Assembly: GCF_008039615.1 (NCBI RefSeq) | Contig: NZ_VDUZ01000041.1 | Location: forward strand, 1-64,000 | Source of the DNA: Vineibacter terrae | GTDB lineage: Bacteria > Pseudomonadota > Alphaproteobacteria > Reyranellales > Reyranellaceae | DNA: 64,000 bases | Reading direction: 5' to 3' | Shown: positions 28,799 through 36,571 of the stretch, one piece after another | How the letters are laid out: each line of letters begins with the position of its first letter | Numbering within the stretch: the first letter of the stretch is position 1 | The notes under the pieces: generated by a model | Told to the model about the DNA's origin: nothing | Database searches by the model: none | Seen by the model: the letters and a program-made list of their open reading frames with translations, nothing else | Program-made: the position numbers and the translations under genes

Positions 28799-28842
28799 GC
28801 GTAGGGCTATCGCACATGGTCGGAAGTGTCTGTTTTCGACTA

Positions 28843-28986
28843 CCTTCCCCCGCTTGCGGGGGAAGGTGGCGCGAAGCGCCGGATGGGGGGCGCTTCAACG
28901 CATATGGTGCATCCCATCAGCATCTGCGCTGTTGCGACACCCCCATCCGCCCTTTCGGGCACCTTCCCCCGCAAGCGGGGGAAGGT
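28843..28986. repeat. Palindromic GC-rich element, second family
   Basis: Outer arms CCTTCCCCCGCTTGCGGGGG and its complement at the right end. Each arm is itself a small hairpin, with GGATGGGGG/CCCCCATCC inner arms. A related, diverged copy is at 62766-62910, and a shorter G/C hairpin of the same style at about 111-150 runs into the lysR end. It fills the gap between convergent hyuB and the selenoprotein operon. Confidence 0.75.
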
Positions 28987-29058
28987 AGAAGCCGTCGCTG
29001 AGATTCGGCAACCCGACGCCATATGCGATCGCCGTGACTCTGAGGCAGCGGGGCCGAT

Positions 29059-29146: not shown

Positions 29147-30064
29147 TCATGTCTCGCAGCGTTGCGCCGCCAGCTCGGCGGCAGTGGTCGCTTCGGCCAC
29201 GGCCTGGGTCAGCCGGCCGCCGTAGCCCGCGCGCACCGCGCCGACCGCGAACACCCCCGGCAGGGTGGTTTCGAAACGCCCGTCGGTGACCACGAAGCCG
29301 GCGGCGTCACGCGTCACCTCCGGCCCCAGCAACGCTGCGTGGGGTGCCAGCCCGACGAACACGAAGAGCCCGCTGCAGGCAATCTGCTCCTCGCTGCCGG
29401 TTTCCCTGTCGCGCACGCGGACGCCCTCGACACAAGAGGAACCCAGCACTTCGGTGATCTCGCTCGCGAAGCGCAGCCCGAAGCGTTCGTCCGTGGCGAT
29501 GCGCGACACGTAGCTCCGGCGGGCCCGGAACTGCTCGCCGCGCGTGACGATCGTGATCCTGCTGGCGAACTGGCCGAGATGCAGCGCTTCCGACAGCGCC
29601 GCGTCTCCGCCGCCCGCAACCACGACTTCGGCACCGCGATAGAGGCCGCCGTCGCACCATGCGCACTGCGACACACCCTGCCCCGCGAGCCGCGCCGCGC
29701 CGGGGACGTCCAATGTTTTCAGGGCGGCGCCGGTGGCCACGATCACCTGGTTCGCGCGCCAGGCGCCCTCCGGGCCACGCAGCGTGCGCGTCGCGCCGCC
29801 CTTGATCGCGTCGATGCGCGACGGGATCAGCGTGACGCCCAGCGTCTCGTTCTGCCCGACGAGGCCGCCGGCTAGCTCGGCGCCCGCGACGCTGCCGGTG
29901 GCGGGCCATCCGTCCAGCGCGCCCACGTTCATCACCAGCCCGCCCGGCAGGCCGTCCTCGACGAAATGCACCACCGAGCATCCGGCCAGCGCCGCATGAT
30001 GGGCGGCCGTGAGACCAGCGATGCCGCCGCCGATCACCGCAATGTCGAACCTGCTTCCTGCCAT
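29147..30064 (-). CDS. Thioredoxin-reductase-like FAD/NAD(P) flavoprotein
   Basis: A 305-residue low-molecular-weight thioredoxin-reductase-type protein. It has an FAD-binding GxGxxG (IGGGIAGLTAA, 11-21), a redox-active CAWC at 134-137 in the context VSQCAWCDGG (standard CATC position), a second dinucleotide fold (VVVAGGGDAAL) and a C-terminal FAD motif (GVFAVGAVRAGYGG, where GD is usual). The length is normal. It is the third gene in the selenoprotein operon, so it may reduce the Sec/Cys centre of that protein. This is inference from position and chemistry. The GD-to-GA change in the last motif is mildly unusual. Confidence 0.85.
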   Translation of the reverse strand: MAGSRFDIAVIGGGIAGLTAAHHAALAGCSVVHFVEDGLPGGLVMNVGALDGWPATGSVAGAELAGGLVGQNETLGVTLIPSRIDAIKGGATRTLRGPEGAWRANQVIVATGAALKTLDVPGAARLAGQGVSQCAWCDGGLYRGAEVVVAGGGDAALSEALHLGQFASRITIVTRGEQFRARRSYVSRIATDERFGLRFASEITEVLGSSCVEGVRVRDRETGSEEQIACSGLFVFVGLAPHAALLGPEVTRDAAGFVVTDGRFETTLPGVFAVGAVRAGYGGRLTQAVAEATTAAELAAQRCET

Positions 30065-30097: not shown

Positions 30098-31339
30098 TTA
30101 TCGCGCGACGAGCGCTTCCGCATCCTCCGACGCATCCGCGAGAAGCTGCGTCCAGTCGGCCGGCAGGCGTATTTCGCGCGTGATCCGGGCCGGCGGGAAT
30201 CCCCATGACGGGCAATAGGCATTCTGCGGAATCGGGATGTCGCCGCCCGCGACCACGAGCACGATGTCATCAGGCGTGCGGGTCGCCGGAATGTCGCCGC
30301 GGCTCGCTTCCGCCTCCACCCAGTCCGGCCAGCGCCGATTGGCCAGGATGCGCTCGGTGAGCCAGGATTTCTCCCAGTCCGCCCGCCGCCAACGCCCCTG
30401 TTCCCAGAGGAAGCGGCGCACCTCGTCCTTGCCCAGGCCGCGCCGGGCGCAGTCCGCTGCGACCGCAGGCGCGATCAGCACCGTCGGCCGGCCGCTCCAT
30501 AGGATGCCGAAGCCCGACGCCGCCGAGCCCATGACGCTGGCAATCTCGCGCAGCCCGCCCGTCACGTTGATCACGCTCTCCGCCCGCGTCAGCGTGACGG
30601 CGCTCTGGTCCGCCGCCATTCCGGCCTCGACATGCAGCGGCGCCCAGGGGCTTTGCGCTTCGTTCTCGGCCAGGCACAGCGTGTAGCGTCCCGGCTGTCC
30701 CAGGCCGGCGAAGGATACCGCCCCCGGCCAGCCGCCGCCGATATTGTTCATCACCAGCCGGATGGCGCGGCCGATCGTGGCGTTCGCCTGCCAACCCGGC
30801 CCCAGCGCGCCGAACCCGCCATTGATCGCCAGCAAGCGCGCCACGGGTCCGTTCACGACCAGCAGCGGCGTCACGTTCTCATCGGTCGTCTGCACGCCGC
30901 GAAGGTTGAACGCGGGATCCAGCAGGCACTCGACCGCGGCCAGCACCACTGGAAGATACTCCGGCCGACACCCCGCCATCACGGCGTTGGCGGCGGCCCG
31001 CTCCGTAGTGGCCAGCCCTTTGAGCGGCTCGACCTCGCCCAGCACCTCGGCGGGCCCCCGCGACGTGAAACGCAGCGCCGCCTTCACGCGAGCGATGGTC
31101 GGCGCCACCACCGGCAGGCCGTCAGTCCAGCCCCGGCGGAGAAACAGCTCCTGGACGCGTTCCGCCGCGTTCGGTCCGCGCACCACTTCGACGCGCTGGC
31201 GCGGGAAGTCGGCGGCGAGCGGCACCCTGCCGCTCATGCCCTGCTCGGCCGCGCGCTGCTTCAGCGTGTCGTCGACCCACGCGCCGGAAGCCTGCTGGCC
31301 GGCCGGCACGACGAGCCACAGGCTGTCGCTGTCGGTCAT
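30098..31339 (-). CDS. Paralogue of the UGSC selenoprotein C-terminal domain
   Basis: A 413-residue protein that aligns with the C-terminal two-thirds of the neighbouring selenoprotein. Shared motifs are GWTDGLPVVAPT (about 71-82; GWSDGLPIVPPT there), the strongly conserved VMAGCRPEYLP (Cys124; Cys274 there), LVVNGP, ATIGR/TSVGR and LAENE. It lacks the N-terminal UGSC domain. The pair probably arose by duplication and may form a hetero-oligomer. No catalytic function is known to me. It starts 19 nt after the selenoprotein stop. Confidence 0.75.
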   Translation of the reverse strand: MTDSDSLWLVVPAGQQASGAWVDDTLKQRAAEQGMSGRVPLAADFPRQRVEVVRGPNAAERVQELFLRRGWTDGLPVVAPTIARVKAALRFTSRGPAEVLGEVEPLKGLATTERAAANAVMAGCRPEYLPVVLAAVECLLDPAFNLRGVQTTDENVTPLLVVNGPVARLLAINGGFGALGPGWQANATIGRAIRLVMNNIGGGWPGAVSFAGLGQPGRYTLCLAENEAQSPWAPLHVEAGMAADQSAVTLTRAESVINVTGGLREIASVMGSAASGFGILWSGRPTVLIAPAVAADCARRGLGKDEVRRFLWEQGRWRRADWEKSWLTERILANRRWPDWVEAEASRGDIPATRTPDDIVLVVAGGDIPIPQNAYCPSWGFPPARITREIRLPADWTQLLADASEDAEALVAR

Positions 31340-31358: not shown

Positions 31359-33095
31359 TCAGGCCTGCGCGTCGCGCAGGCGCGCCCGCCAGCTCTGCGG
31401 CAGCTTGACGGTCTTCGTGGTCGGGAAGCCGAGCATTCCGTTGTGCACGAACAGATAGCAGTTGGACCGCAGCGGATCGCCCGACACCGCGATCATGATG
31501 TGCTCGGGCCTCGTCACCACCGGCACCAGGCGATTGGGATCGTTGCCCGCGAAGGCCCTGGGCAGCTTGCCCAGCCGCACCCAGTCGTTCAGCGTGCGCT
31601 TGCCGGGCACGAGGTTGGTCCAACCCCAGAGATACTTCTCGAACAGGTGCGCAGGCATGCGCGCGTTCTCGTACAGCCAGCTCTGCATGTCCTGCTTGGT
31701 CATCGTCCTGGCGATGGTTTCCGCGATCAGCGGGCTCAGCACCAGCAGTGGCCGATAGGTGCCGGTCGCCAGGCCGACGGTGAAAACCAGCTCCCACCCC
31801 GTGTGCATGACCAGCGCGTTGCCGAGATAGGGCAGCACCTTCTCCGCGCTGTCACCGAACACGGAGACGATCACGTTGCCGCCGGTGAAGCGCGAGATCG
31901 TCACTGCGCTGTCGCCGGCCGGCGCGCCCATGTCGACCGACACCGTCGGCCAGTTGAGCCTGGCGAGGCAGTCCTCGTTCTCGGCCAGCACCACGCGCCA
32001 GGTGTTGCCGAAGGTCCCCTTGTCGTTCTGATGCAGCAGGAAGCCGGCGACATTGCGCAGGTAAAGCCGCCAGAACCGGCCAACCGAGGTGTTGGGCTGG
32101 AAGCCGTCGCGCAGCGCGCCCTGCTCGTAGTTGAAGCCCAATTGCTTGATCAGCGGACCGTTGAGCACGATCAGCGTCTCGGCGCCCGGCGTATTGCCGG
32201 AATGCTCGACCCCGTACTCCGGATCGGCCATGGCCTCCGCCAGCGCCACCAGGATCGGCATGTACTCCGGGCGGCAGCCGGCCATGACGCCATTCGCGGC
32301 GACGTTCCATACCGTGGCCAGACGGTTGTCGGGCGGCAGCTTGCCGATCAGATGATCCGGCGCAAGGTCCGTGAAGGCCAGGAACGCCGCAATCTTCTCC
32401 TTGGTCGGCGGCACGATCGGCAGCCCGTCGCTCCAGCCATTCTCCAGGAACAGCCGGTTGACCTCCTCGAAGCTGCCGTCGAGCACGATCTCCTGCGGGT
32501 CGGGGTCCTTGACCGCGGTCACGGCCGCGATCTCGCCGGTCAGGTTCCGGATCACATGCTCGACCGTGGTGCCGAGCACATTGCGGCGCAGGTCGGCATC
32601 GGTCTGAACGTCGACATGCCCTGGAACGGTGGCCAGGGCGAGGTTGGGATAACCCAGGCCGACGGACGTCGTCTTGGCCTGCCCGAGGAAGCCCTCGCAG
32701 CACAGCGACGACGTCGGCACGCCGGCTTCTTCTGCAATCGCGCTGACCCGCAACACGGCGGGCGTGCAGCTCCCTCAACACCCCATGCCGGAAACGACGG
32801 CATCAATCTTCAGCGACTTGATCTTGCCCGGCAGCTCCGCCAGCACCCGATGCTCCTCGTCGCCATGCGTCGAGCCGAACGCATCATGGTCGATGAACGT
32901 CATGTTCGAGTAGCGGCGCGACAGCTCCTCCTTGAGCATCGGCCAGATTTCGTCGCCGCGGAACAGATTGTCCCACAGGAACGCGATCGTCTTGCCCTCG
33001 AGCGTATCGAGCCGCCTGGCCAGCGGCTTGATGTCGACCGTCTTGGCGCCGCGCGGCCAGACCACCGGATAGCTGCCGTTGTCCCGCTGTGCCAT
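31359..33095 (-). CDS. UGSC-family selenoprotein with in-frame TGA (Sec107)
   Basis: A 578-residue protein when the TGA at 32775-32777 is read as selenocysteine. The frame before it (from 33095) ends VVSGMGC. The frame after it continues without a break as GSCTPAVLRVSAIAEEAG and is open to 31359. This gives Cys106-Sec107-Gly-Ser-Cys110, the U-G-S-C motif of a known but functionally uncharacterised selenoprotein family. A bacterial-SECIS-like hairpin follows the TGA. Domain 1 (1 to about 190) carries the redox motif and Cys132-Cys133. Domain 2 (about 210-578) carries DGLPIVPPT and GCRPEY and is shared with the next gene. Start: ATG at 33095 with GGAG 6 nt upstream; ATG 33107 is the alternative. 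Ordinary ORF calling would split it into two wrong genes. Confidence 0.88.
32746..32763 (-). promoter_or_regulatory. Candidate bacterial SECIS hairpin
   Basis: Directly downstream of the selenoprotein TGA on the minus strand. A 6-bp stem (GCCCGC pairing with GCGGGT, the outermost pair G-U) closes a 6-nt loop CGTGTT with a G in its second position. The loop begins 18 nt after the TGA. Bacterial SECIS elements sit in this interval and bind SelB through a short G-containing apical loop. The stem is short, so structure prediction should confirm it. Confidence 0.6.
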
Positions 33096-33612
33096 GCGCT
33101 TCTCCATCCCGTCGTGTTGCTTGCTTGTGGATCTGTACTAACCGCGCCTGCGCCCGAGAGACAGTGTTCCGATGGCGTGGCAGCTCTGCCGTGAAAGCTT
33201 ACCTCGAGCAGCGGGCCTTCTGGCGATTCCCGAGACACACACGTCATCCCGAGCGCAGCGAGGGATCTCCTGCGAATGGCGCACCATGCGTCTTTCGCAG
33301 GAGATCCCTCGCTACGCTCGGGATGACGGCGGCTATGCGGTTGTAGACGCCGCCTACTTCTTGCGTATTCCAGTATAGCGCCCGTTGCGGAACGCACGCC
33401 GCCGACTTGTTGACATCGCCTGTCAGGCAATGGAACGTTACGTCCAAGCCGTCGACCGAGCGGCTATCGGGGAAACATCAAGCGGCGTTTCCGGCAGCAG
33501 CCATCGCATATCCGCGAATCGCCATGACCTTGCGGCGCAGCCGCCGGCTCGGAGCCGGCCCGTTGCGTCTTGTCACGCAGCCCGCCCACGCGGGCGATTT
33601 GGGAGGGATCGC
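33096..33612. other. Divergent control region between selenoprotein operon and TRAP genes
   Basis: It holds one copy of the dispersed palindromic element (33242-33329). On the TRAP side the frame is open from 33385, but without protein-like sequence or a ribosome site until 33601. I do not see an unambiguous operator. The divergent layout suggests shared regulation of transport and the selenoprotein operon. Confidence 0.4.
33242..33329. repeat. Dispersed palindromic element, copy 4
   Basis: Left arm CGTCATCCCGAGCGCAGCGA and right arm ending GCTCGGGATGACG, with a GCGAATGGCGCACCATGCGT centre almost identical to copies 16906-16989 and 43532-43618. Confidence 0.88.
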
Positions 33613-34623
33613 ATGCTGACCATCCACAGACGTTCCGTCGTGCTGGGCGTGCTTGGTGCCGCTGCCGCGAGCAGCCGCGCCACCGCACAGTCTCCGGTCA
33701 AATGGGACATGTACTCCATGGTCGGCGTCACGCATCCCATCACGCTGCGCTACAAGGCCTTCGCTGACGAGGTGAAGACGGCCACCGGCGGCAAGCTCGA
33801 CATCATCGTGCGTCCTGCCGGCGAGCTGCCGTTCCGCGCCACCGAGGTCGTCAAGGTCACCGGCGACAACCAGGTGCAGCTCTCCGAGGGCTACCAGGGT
33901 TTCATTTCAGGCGCCGTGCCGCTGGCCTCGATCGCCAGCCTGCCGTTTCTGGTGCGCAACGGCGAGGAGCTCGAGAAAGTCTGGCCGATCATCGACAAGT
34001 ACACAGCCGTCGAGTTCAAGAAGTCGGGCGTGCAGACATTGTTCCACCACACCTGGCCGGTGCAGAACATCTTCGGCCGCGGCAAGCCGATCAAGACTGT
34101 CGATGATTTCAAGGGGCGCAAGATACGCTCCACCGACGGCAAGCAGGCCGAGATGCTGAAGCAGCTCGGCGCCTCCTCCGTCAGCCTGACCACGGCCGAG
34201 GTGCCGGTCGCCATGGAGCGCGGCGTCGCCGAGGGGTTCATCACCGCAGGCTTCAATATCATCGGCGCGAAATGGTACGAATTCGTGCAATGGGGCTGGC
34301 TCGGGGATGTTCATATCGGCGGGCCTGACTACACGCTGGTCAACGTCGCCGCATACGACAAGCTCGACGCCGATACGCGAGCGAAGCTTGATGCCGTGGC
34401 CAAGGACTATGCGCCGCGCTTCCGCGCTGCCAACCTCGGCGACGAGGCAAAGGACCTCGATACGTTGAAGACCAAATACAAGGTCGATCTGTTCGTGCCG
34501 CCGAAGGAGCAGGTCGACGCCCTGATCGAGAAGATGAAGCCGTATTGGGAGCAATGGGCGTCCGGCCACGGCGCCAACGGCGTCGCCATGCTCAAGGAGA
34601 TCCGGGCCGCCCTCGGCAAGTGA
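33613..34623 (+). CDS. TRAP transporter substrate-binding protein (DctP type)
   Basis: A 336-residue periplasmic receptor: signal peptide (about 1-25, cleavage after ATAQ), then the DctP fold with GVTHPITLRYKAFADEV and the GRKIRSTDGKQAEMLKQLGA region that carries the ligand-binding Arg in this family. It delivers a carboxylate-type solute to the membrane subunits encoded next. The ATG at 33613 follows GGGAGGGA. Together with the selenoprotein operon opposite, it may import that operon's substrate. Confidence 0.9.
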   Translation: MLTIHRRSVVLGVLGAAAASSRATAQSPVKWDMYSMVGVTHPITLRYKAFADEVKTATGGKLDIIVRPAGELPFRATEVVKVTGDNQVQLSEGYQGFISGAVPLASIASLPFLVRNGEELEKVWPIIDKYTAVEFKKSGVQTLFHHTWPVQNIFGRGKPIKTVDDFKGRKIRSTDGKQAEMLKQLGASSVSLTTAEVPVAMERGVAEGFITAGFNIIGAKWYEFVQWGWLGDVHIGGPDYTLVNVAAYDKLDADTRAKLDAVAKDYAPRFRAANLGDEAKDLDTLKTKYKVDLFVPPKEQVDALIEKMKPYWEQWASGHGANGVAMLKEIRAALGK

Positions 34624-35269: not shown

Positions 35270-36571
35270 ATGAATCTCGAGTTGCTGACACTGATCCTGA
35301 TCGCGAGCCTTGCCGTCATGCTGACGGCCGGCCAATGGACCGCCTTCGCGCTCGGCATCTGTGGCGTGCTGGTGCTCTACCTCAGCAAGGGCTTGCTCGG
35401 CCTCACCGCGCTTTCCTCGGTGGTCTGGAACAACGCCAACAGCTACATCCTGATCGCCGTGCCGATGTTCCTGCTGATGGGAGAGGTCATCCTGCGCAGC
35501 GGCGTCAGCGGCTATTTCTACCGCGGCGTCGTCGTCCTGCTCGGCAGCCTGCCCGGCGGCCTGCTGCACGCCAACATCACGAGCTGCGCGGTGTTCTCCG
35601 CGGTCTCGGGATCCAGCGTCGCCACCGCCGCCACGGTGGGAACCGTGGCCATTCCCGAGATGCTCAAGCGCGGCTACGAACCGCGGACGGTGTTCGGCTC
35701 GCTGGCCGCCGGCGGCACGCTCGGCATCCTGATCCCGCCGAGCATCATCATGGTGCTGTATGGCGCCCTGGTGGAGGAATCGATCGCCAGGCTGTTCATG
35801 GCCGGCGTCCTGCCCGGCCTGCTCATGGCTGCCGTCTTCATGACCTTCATCGCGCTGCTGCTGCTGTACAAGCCGCACTATGCGCCGCCGCGCGGCGCGA
35901 AAGGGGCAAGACCGCCGGCCGGCGACGTCGTCCACGTCTTTCCCGTCCTGGGCCTGCTGGTCGTGGTCCTCGGCAGCATCTATTCCGGCATCGCAACGCC
36001 GACCGAAGCCTCGGCGCTCGGCGCCTTCGGCGCCATCCTGCTCGCGGTGGGCTATCGTGCCTTCTCCCGCCGTGTCTTCGCCGAAGCGCTGATGTCCACG
36101 GTGAAGACCACCTGCATGGTGACGCTGATCATCATCGGTGCCCAGATCCTGTCCACCGCCCTCACCTATTCCGGCGTGAGCCGGACCGTCAGCGAGTGGA
36201 TCATGGGCCTCGGCCTGGGCAAGTGGGAGTTCTTCGTCGCCCTGGTCATGCTCTACATCGTGCTCGGATGCTTCGTCGACGGCATCTCGATGATCTACAT
36301 GACCCTGCCGGTCTTGCTGCCGGTGGTGAAGGCCTTCGGCTTCGACCTCGTGTGGTTCGGCGTCGTCCTCACCGTGCTGATCGAGCTCGGCCAGATCACG
36401 CCGCCCGTGGGCCTCAACCTGTTCACCATCCATGCCATCTCCGGCGGCCACAAATTCGCCGAGGTCGCGATCGGCTCGACCCCGTACGTGGCCCTGATGC
36501 TCCTGGTCATCGCGATGCTCGCGTTCTGGCCCGAGATCGCGCTCTGGCTGCCCAACACCATGCGCGGCTGA
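35270..36571 (+). CDS. TRAP transporter large permease (DctM type)
   Basis: A 433-residue, roughly 12-helix DctM subunit. The family segments are clear: SSVATAATVGTVAIPEM, GGTLGILIPPSIIMVLYG and GQITPPVGLNLFTIHAI. It forms the Na+-coupled transport channel with the small permease. Standard length, no defect seen. Confidence 0.93.
   Translation: MNLELLTLILIASLAVMLTAGQWTAFALGICGVLVLYLSKGLLGLTALSSVVWNNANSYILIAVPMFLLMGEVILRSGVSGYFYRGVVVLLGSLPGGLLHANITSCAVFSAVSGSSVATAATVGTVAIPEMLKRGYEPRTVFGSLAAGGTLGILIPPSIIMVLYGALVEESIARLFMAGVLPGLLMAAVFMTFIALLLLYKPHYAPPRGAKGARPPAGDVVHVFPVLGLLVVVLGSIYSGIATPTEASALGAFGAILLAVGYRAFSRRVFAEALMSTVKTTCMVTLIIIGAQILSTALTYSGVSRTVSEWIMGLGLGKWEFFVALVMLYIVLGCFVDGISMIYMTLPVLLPVVKAFGFDLVWFGVVLTVLIELGQITPPVGLNLFTIHAISGGHKFAEVAIGSTPYVALMLLVIAMLAFWPEIALWLPNTMRG

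Follow-up and report, generated by a model that had tools for sequence, protein, structure and literature searches.

A conserved bacterial SECIS-type hairpin in a UGSC-family selenoprotein gene of Vineibacter terrae

Introduction

The SECIS elements of the E. coli fdhF/fdnG type formate dehydrogenase genes place their apical loop at a distance from the UGA similar to that described below, and the loop carries a G with G or U after it. The published consensus for such elements (bSECIS) asks for an apical loop of 3-9 nt, a stem of 4-16 bp, an energy below -7.5 kcal/mol, a G within the first two loop positions and a UGA-to-loop distance of 16-37 nt (PMC13188914). Zhang and Gladyshev described UGSC proteins as selenoproteins and counted, in ocean data, 255 members with selenocysteine (Sec) and 21 with Cys; the same paper, of 2008, reports a 'UGSC/Unknown_1' fusion and suggests a Trx-like fold for UGSC (PMC2398784). 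A UGSC-containing selenoprotein family is also listed, as NF041046, in PMC13188914. The literature consulted still lists the function of the UGSC family as uncharacterised, and it is there that the remaining interest lies.

Here we describe, from computational analysis, a hairpin in a 64,000-nt stretch of the V. terrae genome (the window) that very probably serves a UGSC-family selenoprotein gene as its bacterial SECIS element. The gene is a further example of an already described selenoprotein family and the hairpin itself is ordinary.

Results

The gene and its hairpin

Reading TGA as Sec, positions 33107-31359 of the minus strand form a single frame that encodes 582 residues and contains the motif GMGC-U-GSC. 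The gene and the elements around its UGA are as follows.

31359..33107, minus strand: selenoprotein gene with a UGSC domain (about aa 15-190) and an 'Unknown_1' domain (about aa 200-582), predicted start; from translation with TGA as Sec, PF24696 and one-TGA orthologues
32775..32777, minus strand: in-frame UGA, selenocysteine codon 111 in GMGC-U-GSC; from frame translation and alignment with Cys in L205, L098 and L032
32746..32763, minus strand: predicted bacterial SECIS hairpin with a 6-bp stem, outer pair G-U; from folding, codon conservation and relatives
32752..32757, minus strand: apical loop CGTGTT with G in position 2; the loop starts at nucleotide 18 after the UGA

The Pfam model PF24696 scored 90.3 bits on the read-through protein (gathering score 25) compared to 30.0 and 28.3 bits on the two halves, with a match spanning the UGA; with the gathering score passed and the U-G-S-C motif present, the protein belongs to the UGSC family. 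The score with NF041046 was 45.6 bits against a curated cut-off of 125, and the protein is therefore a long-form relative rather than an equivalog of that entry. Its C-terminal domain, which no Pfam or NCBIfam model matched, is probably the 'Unknown_1' of the fusion described in the 2008 paper (PMC2398784). The motifs W-S/T-DGLP and MAGCRPEY occur both in this C-terminal part (about 31359-32510) and in a second Unknown_1 sequence at 30098-31339. With the whole fusion as query, we found seven places in the host genome and matches in 75 of the 76 genomes of the order, mostly via Unknown_1. A short UGSC gene adjoins a separate Unknown_1 gene in other genomes and on contig C68 of the host genome, and therefore both fused and split forms exist.

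The interval 32746-32777 comprises the UGA and the hairpin, the latter running from 32763 to 32746 on the minus strand. Within the 36 nt directly 3' of the UGA (GGGAGCTGCACGCCCGCCGTGTTGCGGGTCAGCGCG, minus strand, 32774 downward), nucleotides 12-17 counted from the UGA (GCCCGC) pair with nucleotides 24-29 (GCGGGT) and enclose the loop at 18-23. An earlier note made from the sequence had given this interval, the CGTGTT loop, the 6-bp stem with its G-U outer pair and the spacing exactly as we find them. Folding of the region after the TGA, which that note had proposed as a check, returned the same hairpin in both the MFE and the centroid structure, at -15.9 kcal/mol for 36 nt and -16.4 kcal/mol for 54 nt. 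The element thus agrees with the bSECIS consensus in its 6-nt loop and 6-bp stem, in the G of its loop, in the 17 nt that separate the UGA from the loop and in an energy below the limit of -7.5 kcal/mol. The note had also rightly called the stem short, yet 5-6 bp fits the published model, which has an upper stem of 4-16 bp (PMC13188914). An Rfam scan of the window returned a tRNA-Glu only and no RNA family matching the hairpin.

Selenocysteine machinery

The host genome carries the complete Sec-decoding trait (selA, selB, selC and selD). SelB, without which the earlier reading of the hairpin would have fallen, was found by profile search at 431 bits against a cut-off of 242; similar searches gave 575 bits for selA and 269 bits for selD, and a tRNA-Sec with anticodon TCA scored 75.3 bits in Rfam. 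All four genes lie within 16 kb on contig C5 together with a TGA-containing formate dehydrogenase gene, in which AGTTT flanked by pairing bases stands 18 nt after the in-frame TGA. A PF24696 search of the host genome yielded four UGSC genes, each with exactly one TGA. As side observations in the same genome, selD (L018, C5:15543-16448) is part of a 747-aa frame whose N-terminal portion is NADH-dehydrogenase-like, an arrangement known from the Ndh-SelD fusion, and a PrdB/GrdB-like gene near C49:58677-58889 (L241) has a V-U-PFC-TRA motif at an in-frame TGA and is a probable further selenoprotein gene.

Orthologues with TGA occur in eleven genomes of the same family. Among 385 sampled genomes of the class, 35 carry a TGA-bearing UGSC gene, and 34 of these have selA above cut-off, compared to 22 of the 350 genomes without such a gene (Fisher P ~1e-32, relatedness not corrected). 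The one exception (G086) lacks selA, but its assembly is 77% complete.

A Cys orthologue provides a natural control. The single close Cys orthologue, from Roseibium aggregatum (L205), has TGC followed by CCG GCG GTG ATG CGC, and the stem is gone. selA was not found in its genome, while it is present in all six sampled genomes with Sec orthologues; hairpin and selA are thus lost jointly in this one case. Cys also takes the place of Sec in two distant homologues (L098 and L032).

These observations bear on the possibility that the UGA is translated by SECIS-independent read-through or under an altered code, the hairpin having another role or none. Such an arrangement is very unlikely in a genome with complete Sec machinery, in which the fusion gene still ends with TGA as its own stop, the more so as relatives keep a G at the loop position where SelB would make contact and the Cys orthologue is without both hairpin and selA.

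Conservation of the UGA and the hairpin

Raw stability is ordinary for GC-rich DNA: 129 of 200 dinucleotide-shuffled sequences are at least as stable (z = +0.46 for the sense strand, +0.40 for the other strand), and we rejected shuffle-based stability as proof of a SECIS element. Synonymously recoded versions, on the other hand, had a mean hairpin score of 6.5 compared to 16.8 for the natural sequence, and only about 3% of recodings reached the same SECIS-like score. To judge by the sequence comparisons, the signal beyond chance is evolutionary and is not one of stability.

The UGA was followed across 81 places in named genomes from several phyla, orthologous or of the same family; the codon is TGA in 80 of them, as it is in 24 of 24 close orthologues (proteins 50-88% identical). 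The hairpin is kept in all 24 close orthologues, in 79 of the 80 TGA places and in 78 of 78 short UGSC genes, by a score that requires G in loop position 1 or 2, so that all relatives counted as hairpin-bearing have one. Loss of the stem-loop in homologues, which the earlier note had named as grounds for abandoning the reading, is therefore not what we observe, and its view that the hairpin supports Sec insertion is borne out by this conservation together with the Sec machinery in the genome. One of the 79 (L226) has TGA and a weak hairpin only, by the scoring used. The remaining TGA orthologue (L202), judged by that score, lacks a SECIS-like hairpin at the expected site and is possibly a decaying gene or one with a different structure. 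In two contigs (L183 and L193) a long UGSC fusion occurs along with a short UGSC gene, and both genes have a TGA and a hairpin of their own.

We give next to no credence to the view that translation really stops at the TGA, or that the codon is a sequencing or assembly error, with the halves a pseudogene or two adjacent genes and the hairpin a chance product of GC-rich sequence. It would agree with a fold no more stable than that of shuffled sequence and with ordinary ORF calling, which gives two ORFs at 32775-33107 and 31359-32756; however, the shared TGA just described, in genes nearly all of which have no other stop, the intact state of both halves, the frozen hairpin codons described below and the co-occurrence with selA all stand against it. 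The split ORF pair is one selenoprotein gene that ordinary annotation would cut at the UGA.

Examination of synonymous sites, also proposed in the earlier note, singled out the hairpin codons. Codons +5 CCC, +6 GCC, +7 GTG and +9 CGG are invariant in the 24 close orthologues, while codons +1, +4 and +12 each occur as four different codons. When 53 stretches of five codons are compared, the one encoding PAVLR shows the least diversity. The residue is invariant and the codon choice at least fourfold in 101 columns; six of these show a single codon throughout, and four of the six are hairpin codons (naive P = 4e-6, to be taken as an indication rather than a probability because the sequences are related). 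Pairing is thus conserved and synonymous sites constrained in Sec homologues, and the hairpin is lost in the Cys homologue, of which there is one close example. The outermost pair, 12-29, is not kept in 16% of relatives, which leaves a dependable stem of 5 bp.

The short UGSC genes vary the stem while preserving it. Among 73 distinct short UGSC sequences, 58 close the loop with C-G and 15 with G-C, and none has this pair broken; position 20, in the loop, is G in all 73. The switch of the closing pair needs two coupled amino-acid changes, Cys with Leu/Met/Thr as opposed to Trp with Phe/Ile. Together, frozen codons and coupled changes (Cys/Leu versus Trp/Phe) across the family point to an RNA structure that steers protein sequence. 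Codon bias or an overlapping reading frame as the source of this conservation has hardly any chance of being right: CCC, GCC, GTG and CGG may well be preferred in GC-rich genomes and other open frames do cross the site, but nearby codons for identical or similar residues (Pro +20, Ala +12, Thr +4) are free to vary, Pro, Ala, Val and Arg columns outside the hairpin are not equally frozen, three relatives with GCA GTT GTG (L206, L211 and L214) change codons yet keep the stem with an extra A-U pair, and the short genes hold a stem of different sequence via compensatory changes.

Gene neighbourhood, fold and possible function

The selenoprotein gene has TRAP transporter genes upstream, in divergent orientation, and an Unknown_1 gene and a thioredoxin-reductase-like gene downstream.

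30098..31339, minus strand: stand-alone 'Unknown_1' protein sharing 35% identity with aa 211-581 of the fusion; beside the fusion gene in relatives too
29147..30064, minus strand: thioredoxin-reductase-like flavoprotein with a CAWC motif; Pyr_redox_2, TIGR01292 below cut-off, conserved neighbour
33613..34623, plus strand: TRAP transporter solute-binding protein (DctP family); PF03480, 118 bits
34692..35216, plus strand: probable TRAP small membrane subunit (DctQ-like); open frame, place between the DctP and DctM-like genes, conserved
35270..36571, plus strand: probable TRAP large membrane subunit (DctM-like); open frame, position, conserved

Some of these genes are also found next to orthologues: the Unknown_1 gene accompanies most of them, the reductase and TRAP genes several. 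Two repeats lie in the same region. In the space that separates the selenoprotein gene from the TRAP genes, 33242-33328 is a near-perfect (93%) inverted repeat of 42 nt with 3 nt between its arms, resembling a dispersed palindromic repeat; at 28840-28988, a palindromic element with 49-nt arms (82%) that contains CCCCCGCAAGCGGGGG is probably a dispersed repeat.

A profile of 106 UGSC sequences aligned with PF07355 (PrdB/GrdB-like) proteins so that the Sec positions coincide (score 42.7, hhalign probability 88%), while 150 column shuffles of this comparison scored at most 24.8. A profile of short UGSC members only gave 10% probability against PrdB/GrdB and nothing above shuffles; because these members alone give no signal, we treat homology between UGSC and PrdB/GrdB as a lead and not as a result. 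At the sequence level the protein had no Pfam match to PF07355 (GrdB/PrdB), the similarity being one of remote profiles. PF07355 relatives with an in-frame TGA were also found in these genomes. A PDB sequence search with the read-through protein gave no match up to E 5. In its AlphaFold model (pLDDT 87.5, pTM 0.83) the UGSC domain is largely parallel alpha/beta; Sec comes directly after a strand and ahead of a helix, and the fold as modelled does not obviously match the Trx-like fold suggested in the literature. Foldseek and VIA-align, run on the full model and on the UGSC domain, gave as best matches generic Rossmann/flavodoxin-like chains, tied at Z of about 8-10, from which we draw no conclusion about function; PrdB/GrdB and Trx folds were not among the structural matches listed, which excludes nothing.

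We infer that the fusion is a thiol-dependent oxidoreductase with a U-G-S-C redox motif. Its probable reductant is the neighbouring thioredoxin-reductase-like protein, and its probable substrate a compound imported by the TRAP transporter. The alignment with PrdB/GrdB suggests a thiol-driven reductase, and together with the gene cluster it offers a testable idea for the function of the UGSC family. Tentatively, and with the balance somewhat against it, the fusion could be the catalytic subunit of a new relative of the D-proline and glycine reductases, in which a PrdB/GrdB-related UGSC domain with an Unknown_1 partner would be recharged by the reductase and would cleave or reduce the TRAP-imported substrate.

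Discussion

The signal, its conservation and the decoding machinery are present at this locus and in its genome. By analogy with the known bacterial mechanism, SelB would bind the hairpin and Sec would be inserted at the UGA. When a ribosome reaches codon 111, the mRNA hairpin would hold SelB-GTP-Sec-tRNA beside the A site, with SelB probably touching the G and U of the apical loop; selenocysteine would then be inserted in place of release, and translation would run on for 471 codons.

With respect to the GrdB/PrdB proteins (PF07355; glycine, sarcosine, betaine and D-proline reductases), UGSC has in common a UxxC-T motif after a strand, whereas the UGSC fusion has other gene partners. Within the UGSC selenoprotein family, the protein shares the U-G-S-C motif and domain, the preponderance of Sec over Cys and a fusion to a downstream domain of the kind reported in 2008; it differs in being the long fusion form, in the Cys before Sec (C-U-G-S-C) and in scoring below the NCBIfam cut-off. 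The stem differs in sequence from those of the E. coli fdhF/fdnG type SECIS elements. As in the bSECIS consensus model, the hairpin lies inside the coding region just 3' of the UGA, and it shows no essential difference from that model, with a stem at the short end of which five pairs are kept in nearly all relatives.
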